Assembly (NCBI GenBank): GCA_019115805.1
Contig: DXCW01000047.1
Location: 1 to 35,059 of the forward strand
From: Candidatus Sphingobacterium stercorigallinarum
GTDB taxonomy: Bacteria > Bacteroidota > Bacteroidia > Sphingobacteriales > Sphingobacteriaceae
Direction of reading: 5' to 3'
DNA length: 35,059 bases
The notes under the pieces were generated by a model, which was not told where the DNA came from, ran no database searches, and worked only from the letters and a program-made list of their open reading frames with translations. Position numbers and translations under genes: made by a program. This document shows positions 30,271 through 32,442 of this stretch, piece after piece (position 1 is the first letter of the stretch; each line of letters opens with the position of its first letter).

Positions 30271-30474
30271 AATCGTTATGAATTTAGTTTTATTACATTT
30301 ACTGATAATTGGTCATAGCAACAATGACGTCCATTATTATTTAATACCAACTGTAGCATGAAATTGTTTTACCTCGTTTCATTGATACAATACCGAAAGA
30401 AAGGAATGTTGTGTTTAAAGTATGGTTTCACCTATAGTGTTTTTGCCAAACAACAGGTTAACAAAACAACATAG

Positions 30475-31080
30475 GTGGGAGTTTTTGGAAAATACCGGGA
30501 CAAACAGCCTCAATGGAGTCTAAGAACTGCATTGGAACGCTGTGCTGTGTCCGATTCCGAGCAAAGTAAAGCATTCCTTTATCGAAAATACTATGGGTAT
30601 GTTATGGCGATAGTTATTCGGTACATGAAACACGAAATGGAAGCCGAAGAGATAACGAACGAGTGCTTTGTGAAAATTTTTAAAAAGATTAGCACGTTTA
30701 GTCTACACGAGGATGCAACCGTTCTGGAGAAGACATTTAAATCTTGGATAGCAAGAATTGCCGTCAACACATCTATCGATGCGCTCCGCGTTCGTAAACA
30801 GATGCACATGATTGATGATCTTAGTGGAAGCGAAACGGCACAATTGTCCGTGGAGAACCAAAGTAACTTGGAATACGAGGACATCCTTTCACTTCTTCGC
30901 CAGCTGCCCGAGATTCAACGTTCGATTTTCAACCTTTATGAGATTGAAGGATATTCTCACGAGGAAATCGGAAAACAGTTAGCGATACCGGAGAGCACCT
31001 CTAGAACATATCTCACGCGTGCCAAACAGAAACTTCGCAAATTATACAGTATTCGTTTTGATTACCATACACCATCCTGA
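30475..31080 (+). CDS. ECF-type RNA polymerase sigma factor
   Basis: 201 aa. Sigma region 2 is about residues 32-75 (FLYRKYYGYVMAIVIRYMK, then AEEITNECFVKIFKKI, the core-binding and -10 recognition helices). Region 4 is about 137-190, with LRQLPEIQRSIFNLYEIEGY and the helix-turn-helix EEIGKQLAIPESTSRTYLTR that reads the -35. Spacing and size fit the extracytoplasmic-function group. The start is a GTG at 30475 directly after an in-frame TAG; no ATG gives a full region 2, so a non-ATG start is required unless the true start is a downstream TTG (30532). It is followed after 12 bp by a predicted membrane and beta-barrel protein that is the natural candidate for its regulator. Targets unknown. Confidence 0.9.
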   Translation: MGVFGKYRDKQPQWSLRTALERCAVSDSEQSKAFLYRKYYGYVMAIVIRYMKHEMEAEEITNECFVKIFKKISTFSLHEDATVLEKTFKSWIARIAVNTSIDALRVRKQMHMIDDLSGSETAQLSVENQSNLEYEDILSLLRQLPEIQRSIFNLYEIEGYSHEEIGKQLAIPESTSRTYLTRAKQKLRKLYSIRFDYHTPS

Positions 31081-31092
31081 TTCGACAAGAAA

Positions 31093-32442
31093 ATGGAAAA
31101 AGATAAAAAAGACATTGTTGAACATATCATTAGGGAACTAAAGGCCAAGCAAGAGCTGCCGTATAAGGAAGGCGCATGGGAACGCTTTCAGCAGCAGTCT
31201 GATTCCGCGGTTTCGAAAAAGCCCAAGATCGTATACTGGGCCGCGAGCGCTGCTGCGATACTTCTAGCGGTTTGGGCCGTCAACCAATGGTCTGTCGGTA
31301 CCGACTCCGACACGACACAACCCATCATTGCAGCGCACTCTGACATGGGTACGAGCAGCACCTCAGCGGATTCCGCAGGGGAGGGTGCGGTTCGCCCGGC
31401 AAAAGGCTCCGCTGTTGTTGCGGAACAAAAAGAGGCGTCCTCAGCGAACTTATCGATCCCAGATCAAATGGCAGATGCCTTTCATCCACCCGTATTCGGC
31501 GAGACCTTGTGGGCAAGCGTTCCAAAAACTACCGGTTCTCGCTTTTCGGTGGGCAATCTTACTGCACCGTCCTCACCAGCGCGACTGAATGCGGCAATCG
31601 GACCGACAGGTACGGTGAAACTTCATGCAGATCAGGGCGTGGATCTGGAAAATGCGGACTCGCGTAGCGTCCAATCATTGGCTCATGTAACACAACAGGT
31701 TACCGCGGTAGACGGGAAAGCCCCAGAATTGCGCGATAGAGGTTTTCGTTTTATGGATAAGTTCCAATTGGGGATTTTCGTTTCTCCGAATTCTACCAAC
31801 GAACAATTCAACTTTGGAGGCGGTGTATTGGTCAATTATCAACTTTCTAAAAACTTGAGCATCCGTACAGGATTGGCGTTCAATAAATATGAAGCGTCCC
31901 AAATGCGTGATCCGGTGACCTCACCGGAAATGCAGGTACGAACAAATTTAAACACCTCGCAAATGCCAACCTCTGATGGGGCTATCCAAGCAAAAGTGAG
32001 CAACGCACTGATATTACCGAATGTCAACGCGATTACAGGCAACGTCCAAGCATTAGAAGTTCCCTTAGATCTTAAACTTAACGTGGCACAGGGTTTCTAC
32101 ATTTCCTCAGGGATTACCTATGCTGCTATTCTACAGCAAAACCGGTATGCCCATTATATAGAAAATGTAAACAAAGACCTCTTCCAAGACGGTTTACCAG
32201 AAAATCAAGGTGAGGTACAGCAAGCTACCCAGCAGATTTCCCGATCCATTAAAACGGAAGATGAAAATGTCCGAAGCAATCAATTTGGTGGATTTGCTAA
32301 CTTTTCGCTGGGCAAGGAAGTCAAATTGAATAAAGGGATCTCGCTTTCCGTCGAGCCTTATGTGAAATTACCGGTAGGTAGCTTCCAGCGGGCCGACATG
32401 AACTATACCAATGGAGGGATCCGTATCATTACTAATTTTTAG
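31093..32442 (+). CDS. Putative trans-envelope anti-sigma / outer-membrane beta-barrel protein
   Basis: 449 aa. Residues 1-45 are charged and helical (DIVEHIIRELKAKQELPYKEGAWERFQQ) with no signal peptide. One hydrophobic helix follows at about 46-63 (IVYWAASAAAILLAVWAV). Residues 67-222 form a low-complexity Ser/Ala/Gly/Pro-rich linker. From about 223 the pattern is that of an outer-membrane barrel: alternating strands FQLGIFVSP, FGGGVLVNYQLSKNLSIRTGL, EVPLDLKLNVAQGFYISSGI and LSVEPYVKLPVG, ending GGIRIITNF with a terminal Phe as in BAM substrates. An N-terminal cytoplasmic segment plus an OM barrel implies one chain crossing the whole envelope. With the ECF sigma gene 12 bp upstream, the N-terminus may be an anti-sigma segment; that role is inference. 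Its stop overlaps that of the convergent HAD gene. Confidence 0.72.
   Translation: MEKDKKDIVEHIIRELKAKQELPYKEGAWERFQQQSDSAVSKKPKIVYWAASAAAILLAVWAVNQWSVGTDSDTTQPIIAAHSDMGTSSTSADSAGEGAVRPAKGSAVVAEQKEASSANLSIPDQMADAFHPPVFGETLWASVPKTTGSRFSVGNLTAPSSPARLNAAIGPTGTVKLHADQGVDLENADSRSVQSLAHVTQQVTAVDGKAPELRDRGFRFMDKFQLGIFVSPNSTNEQFNFGGGVLVNYQLSKNLSIRTGLAFNKYEASQMRDPVTSPEMQVRTNLNTSQMPTSDGAIQAKVSNALILPNVNAITGNVQALEVPLDLKLNVAQGFYISSGITYAAILQQNRYAHYIENVNKDLFQDGLPENQGEVQQATQQISRSIKTEDENVRSNQFGGFANFSLGKEVKLNKGISLSVEPYVKLPVGSFQRADMNYTNGGIRIITNF

Follow-up and report, generated by a model that had tools for sequence, protein, structure and literature searches.

The locus described here raises the question of whether a single polypeptide could connect the outer membrane of a bacterium with a sigma factor in the cytosol. 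In the window, as we call the whole stretch of DNA analysed (35,059 nucleotides from a contig of Candidatus Sphingobacterium stercorigallinarum), the gene of an ECF sigma factor is followed by a gene for a larger membrane protein, and the initial annotation proposed that the latter is a sensor barrel and an anti-sigma factor in one. By architecture and gene order, the pair is a Das/Dma-type module (ECF sigma factor and dual membrane-spanning anti-sigma factor). The best explanation, which as a whole we regard as very likely, is a module of this type in which the sigma factor would be held and then freed, and would transcribe a set of lipoprotein genes besides its own operon. Its anatomy, the co-conservation of the pair, the prediction of the barrel, the constraint on the tether and the promoter motif with its placement were computed; from there we reason to the binding of the sigma factor, its release, the inducing signal and the reading of the motif. 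The four-part design, which the initial annotation had implied to be novel, was already described (PMC13088901, PMC9308784), and it is published as the Dma family of Bacteroidota; the new content is the promoter motif and the predicted regulon. Members of the Dma family, reported solely from Bacteroidota, have an N-terminal anti-sigma domain, a membrane helix, a disordered tether and a C-terminal barrel, lie beside an ECF21 sigma gene, and span from the outer membrane to the cytosol (PMC13088901).

Table 1. Features of the sigma-dma locus, candidate targets of the sigma factor in the same genome, and partner proteins with a type IX end in other Bacteroidia
Feature	Coordinates	Strand	Basis or remark
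Predicted ECF-type promoter, TGTAGCA-N16-CGTT	30352..30378	+	Ends 96 bp 5' of the sigma start codon
Promoter halves, TGTAGC and CGTT	30352-30357, 30375-30378	+	Pattern match in own genome and family upstream alignment
ECF sigma factor, 201 aa, GTG start	30475..31080 (including stop)	+	Pfam, NCBIfam and fold matches
Intergenic gap, 12 bp	31081..31092	+	After the TGA stop of the sigma gene
Dma-type dual membrane-spanning anti-sigma protein, 449 aa, ATG start	31093..32442 (including stop)	+	Architecture and relatives
Residues 1-45, predicted cytoplasmic anti-sigma domain, two helices	31093..31227	+	Conservation and AlphaFold2
Residues 46-67, single membrane helix	31228..31293	+	AlphaFold2 helix 46-67; mean identity 37%
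Residues 68-218, disordered periplasmic tether	31294..31746	+	Low pLDDT, unconserved sequence, kept length
Residues 219-449, 8-stranded outer-membrane barrel, last residue Phe	31747..32439	+	AlphaFold2 and fold matches
Candidate target, FKBP-type lipoprotein			PF00254, E 1e-9
Candidate targets, two DUF4397 lipoproteins			PF14344
Candidate target, 137-aa lipoprotein			
Candidate target, the sigma-dma operon itself			
Type IX-ended partners	L086:1456-2727, L089:1477-2751, L095:1480-2823	+	CHU_C, E 3e-14 to 4e-9
Type IX-ended partners, weaker	L079:1495-2775, L088:1471-2754	+	

When both open reading frames were rechecked, the coordinates recorded earlier, the 12-bp gap and the C-terminal Phe proved exact (Table 1). 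The sigma protein matched the Pfam models Sigma70_r2 (PF04542, 8e-11) and Sigma70_r4_2 (PF08281, 3e-18) and the NCBIfam model sigma70-ECF (TIGR02937, 3e-23), that is, regions 2 and 4 without region 3, as in ECF sigma factors. Its fold, taken from a model together with residues 1-66 of the partner, matched those of sigmaE, SigW and AlgU, and the GTG start agreed with the alignment of relatives. The sigma and dma genes (window 30475-31290) share a reading frame, with the TGA codon and four further codons between them. The gap between the two genes is a multiple of three in many relatives too. Both flanking genes, by reading of their translations UspA-like upstream and HAD-like downstream, are on the opposite strand, and the two genes thus form an isolated pair with no other anti-sigma candidate in the operon. 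Scanning of the region for sigma-70 promoters and terminators gave nothing beyond chance level, and no Rfam family was found in it.

The structure of the partner protein was predicted by AlphaFold2 on an alignment of 71 relatives. Two N-terminal helices (residues 3-18 and 28-37) precede the membrane helix, pLDDT is below 50 over residues 70-191 of the tether, a short helix (192-203) lies between the disordered stretch and the barrel, and eight long strands follow between residues 224 and 448. The part boundaries given by the initial annotation (1-45, 46-63, a linker to about 222, and a barrel at 223-449) were therefore right within a few residues, and the closed barrel on which its proposal depended is predicted with confidence as 8-stranded, the pLDDT of this block being mostly 84-98 and lower only within long loops. 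The best structural matches of the barrel by Foldseek and VIA-align include OprF, OmpA, NspA and OmpW (Z 13.5-15.6), with a VIA Z of 15.6 for the N-terminal domain of OprF (rmsd 2.5 over 126 residues) and of 14.9 for OmpA (rmsd 3.0 over 128 residues), and the de novo barrel 6x9z gave a Z of 15.1 (rmsd 2.2 over 111). Pfam OMP_b-brl_2 matched it weakly (E 0.0012, under the Pfam cut-off). No relevant match came from a profile search of PDB sequences, and the structural support is therefore all by fold. The C-terminal Phe is invariant in a 44-row alignment. Lysines 42, 43 and 45 stand directly before the membrane helix, suggesting an N-in, C-out orientation. The claim that the linker is long enough to cross a periplasm of 20-25 nm holds by arithmetic, because 151 residues at about 0.35 nm each give a contour of about 53 nm, which is ample.

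The pair was then sought among relatives, as had been suggested, and was found to be conserved as a unit. A single-sequence scan of the genome contigs, with query peptides that came from variable parts, gave no matches, and an alignment query recovered the relatives missed by it. The sigma gene lies directly 5' of a partner with the same architecture in nearly all of 60 congeners, and of 78 loci with a named host (Sphingobacterium, Parapedobacter, Olivibacter and others) nearly all have the two side by side, so that the arrangement exceeds chance. All 78 belong to Bacteroidota genera, in a search that covered the class of the window in depth. Among the 58 congeners with full-length frames, the sigma factor had a mean pairwise identity of 61%, residues 1-45 and the barrel had 45% each, the helix 37% and the tether 14% (median 10%). 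The length of the tether in the same 58 species was 127-181 residues (mean 153, sd 16; 151 in the window). Judged from these comparisons, the predicted tether is constrained in length and free in sequence, as expected of a tether.

In three of about 60 congeners the dma frame is broken while the sigma gene is intact (L009 of G039, L015/L115 of G038 and L042/L148 of G052), which may reflect assembly errors or real losses. In L009 a frameshift within the tether puts the barrel in a different frame from the N-terminal domain and helix. Some congeners have a second, diverged barrel-type partner (L067 of G020, L068 of G043 and L043 of G052), which in L067 and L043 lies behind a more distant ECF sigma gene of its own.

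An unstructured, sequence-free tether is open to proteases, and the partner might be made as one piece and normally cut there, giving an inner-membrane anti-sigma factor and a separate barrel with no signalling through a continuous chain. The frameshift in G039, with both parts in separate frames beside an intact sigma gene, would also suit such a cut. However, the bounded length of the tether and the full-length frames in nearly all species fit a continuous link, and the family is described as reaching from the outer membrane to the cytosol (PMC13088901); we consider regular cutting of the tether unlikely.

Wherever the DNA 5' of a sigma-dma operon could be read in Sphingobacterium, Parapedobacter and Olivibacter, TGTAGC[AG]-N15/16-CGT, usually ending in CGTT, occurs upstream of the sigma gene, in all 71 distinct aligned sequences, and it is absent from three more distant relatives that have the pair (Pedobacter, Mucilaginibacter and Arachidicoccus). 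The motif looks like the -35/-10 pair of an ECF promoter, and its position before the sigma gene implies probable autoregulation of the sigma-dma operon. Over 62 genomes of the genus the motif was counted 598 times, against 291 for the reversed control (Wilcoxon p 8e-10), with an excess in 52 genomes and a deficit in 6. From its position and conservation, we infer that TGTAGCR-N15/16-CGTT is probably read by the sigma factor of the window. The promoter of a DUF4397 lipoprotein gene (G000:C175:9310-9336) is kept nearly base for base (TGTAGCAATAAGCT.TCCAA..TCGTT) in five species, with orthologous sites in G039, G054, G030 and G013 and with most of the 16-bp spacer conserved too. Such conservation, as far as the aligned sites indicate, is more than a plain -35/-10 pair needs.

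The motif is associated with lipoprotein genes. A lipoprotein-like open reading frame lies within 100 bp of 22 of 57 motif sites and of 0 of 31 control sites (p 1.5e-5) in six genomes; because these genomes are related, the sites are not wholly independent of one another. Of the 23 motif-linked lipoproteins, 17 have two or more acidic residues among the six positions that follow the lipidated cysteine, a surface-export signal by the criterion used previously (PMC12578637). The genome of the window has nine motif sites, and the candidate targets among them are listed in Table 1. In each of the six genomes compared, the motif is present at relatives of the FKBP gene, and across the genus the exact motif is within 29 of 30 FKBP lipoprotein loci (control pattern, 0 of 30), in most cases 50-150 bp upstream of a gene of the tandem. 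The outer-membrane insertion machines of Bacteroidota include surface lipoproteins that have prolyl-isomerase folds (PMC12578637, PMC12611786): BamJ and BamK in Bacteroides thetaiotaomicron (PMC12578637) and BamM in Flavobacterium (PMC12611786). The FKBP lipoprotein is of the same general type as these, though it is not the best BamJ match. Its identification as BamJ was rejected at 26-30 bits (cut-off 100); in the genome of the window it scores 26.6 bits and two other genes score higher (99 and 81), none above the cut-off. A match of a DUF4397 lipoprotein to NigD was likewise dropped, being weak (E 0.045) and mostly over the signal peptide.

The motif was found by position and not by binding, and Pedobacter, Mucilaginibacter and Arachidicoccus have the pair without it; a different ECF sigma factor might read it, with the sigma-dma operon as one member of that other regulon. 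Several points argue against this. ECF operons are usually autoregulated, the sigma gene of the window is the only ECF gene among the nine motif sites of its genome, and the occurrence of the motif follows the relatedness of the sigma factor, all close relatives having it and the more diverged ones lacking it. Reading by another sigma factor is, in our estimate, quite improbable, and we retain the sigma factor of the window as the likely reader.

The N-terminus of the partner matched no Pfam or NCBIfam model above the cut-off. It carries the motif ELPYKEGAWE, in which Y24, G27, W29 and E30 are invariant among 71 relatives. Across the class, single-helix proteins encoded beside ECF sigma genes show it again in a looser version, P(Y/F)....aW. 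As the sigma and dma genes are in frame, the sigma factor and residues 1-66 of the partner could be modelled as one chain through the TGA, the stop codon being read as a residue; this read-through served as a folding device and is not put forward as biology. The model had a pTM of 0.42 and yielded no contacts that could serve as evidence; matches to known folds were confined to its sigma part. Binding of the sigma factor by residues 1-45 is thus suggested by gene context, conservation and published relatives, and not by the model. As to the proposal of sensor barrel and anti-sigma factor as one polypeptide, the four parts do lie on one chain that is conserved beside the sigma gene, and its contact with the sigma factor is a putative one. 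The second gene might instead encode an ordinary protein of the outer membrane that has a long signal-anchor and is controlled by the sigma factor without inhibiting it. This would agree with the unrecognised N-terminus and the low pTM, but it is very improbable: the 45 residues ahead of the helix match the barrel in their degree of conservation, their motif recurs in single-TM proteins beside ECF sigma genes across the class, and in Phocaeicola the sigma regulon is activated when a gene of this kind is disrupted (PMC9308784). Conservation, the predicted fold and the published relatives support the reading of the protein as an anti-sigma-type N-terminus, a membrane anchor, a tether and a barrel in one chain.

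On the Das/Dma-type explanation, residues 1-45 would hold the sigma factor in the cytoplasm of the resting cell, helix 46-67 would anchor the protein in the inner membrane, and the unstructured tether would span the periplasm to the small C-terminal barrel in the outer membrane. If insertion of the barrel failed or the outer membrane were disturbed, the anti-sigma hold would be lost, probably by proteolysis, and the sigma factor released. The freed sigma factor would then transcribe its own operon and lipoprotein genes from TGTAGCR-N15/16-CGTT promoters, the predicted lipoproteins including many with the surface-export signal and an FKBP-type prolyl isomerase. We read the motif and the lipoprotein targets as an autoregulated outer-membrane quality-control circuit, and we propose that it strengthens surface-lipoprotein and outer-membrane folding capacity, possibly on failed barrel insertion; since other genes of the genome match BamJ better than the FKBP lipoprotein does, the proposal is kept to this capacity. 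A bolder suggestion, which we offer tentatively and consider rather unlikely, is that the barrel is itself a client of the outer-membrane insertion machinery and so lets the protein test that machinery from within. On failed insertion the tether would go unheld at the outer membrane and the sigma factor would be freed to express the FKBP-type and other lipoproteins, mostly with the surface signal, that would aid outer-membrane assembly. The promoter found across the genus would then provide the output of such a loop.

A different ending occurs in other Bacteroidia, where proteins encoded next to ECF sigma genes share the N-terminal motif and the membrane helix but have a type IX secretion sorting domain, usually preceded by PKD domains, in place of the barrel (Table 1). 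Their composition suggests a second trans-envelope anti-sigma design, which would use the type IX system; to our knowledge such a design has not been described.

Dma proteins were reportedly first named in 2024, in a founding paper said to be that of Pardue (PNAS) on Dma1/Das1 and Dma2/Das2 of Bacteroides thetaiotaomicron. The published work on them that we found concerns gut Bacteroidales only. The present results place the design throughout Sphingobacterium, a large genus with free-living and host-associated members, and species comparison indicates a tether under constraint of length and not of sequence. With a concrete promoter motif and candidate targets, what a Dma protein reports on becomes directly testable in an easily grown organism.

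Among known systems, FecI-FecR-FecA shares with the pair of the window an ECF sigma factor, an inner-membrane anti-sigma factor and an outer-membrane sensor, but uses a separate TonB-dependent receptor as its sensor, whereas here barrel and anti-sigma factor are in one chain. FecR-type cell-surface signalling was rejected for this locus, as there is no FecR match in Pfam, the neighbours are UspA-like and HAD-like, and the barrel is on the anti-sigma protein itself. M0N98_03760-61 of Phocaeicola vulgatus (Evans 2022, PMC9308784) has, like the pair of the window, a sigma gene followed by that of an unusually large anti-sigma factor, called 'unusual' and predicted to cross the periplasm and to have a barrel in the outer membrane at its C-terminus; disruption of the anti-sigma gene activates the sigma regulon, and envelope stress is the likely trigger (PMC9308784). 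EcfO of Bacteroides fragilis and its partner (Ndamukong 2013), as far as they are described in the citing report (PMC9308784), have the same layout with a large, predicted periplasm-spanning anti-sigma factor with a barrel. The response of the Phocaeicola and EcfO systems is tied to envelope stress and antibacterial toxins, and their genus and regulon differ from those of the window. Dma3 of B. thetaiotaomicron unites sigma, anti-sigma and barrel parts in one module, as does the pair of the window, but its sigma domain is fused at the N-terminus, whereas the window has two in-frame genes with a TGA stop between them, a short evolutionary step from the fused arrangement. Dma1/Das1 and Dma2/Das2 of B. 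thetaiotaomicron (Pardue 2026, PMC13088901) have the same four parts and an adjacent ECF sigma gene and are confined to Bacteroidota, a likeness of architecture and not of direct sequence comparison. Deletion of dma2 increases vesiculation in a das2-dependent manner (PMC13088901). In these systems NigD1 mediates the action of Dma1, and polysaccharide loci are changed as well in dma2 mutants, whereas the pair of the window comes from the Sphingobacterium lineage and has a predicted regulon of FKBP and DUF4397 lipoproteins.
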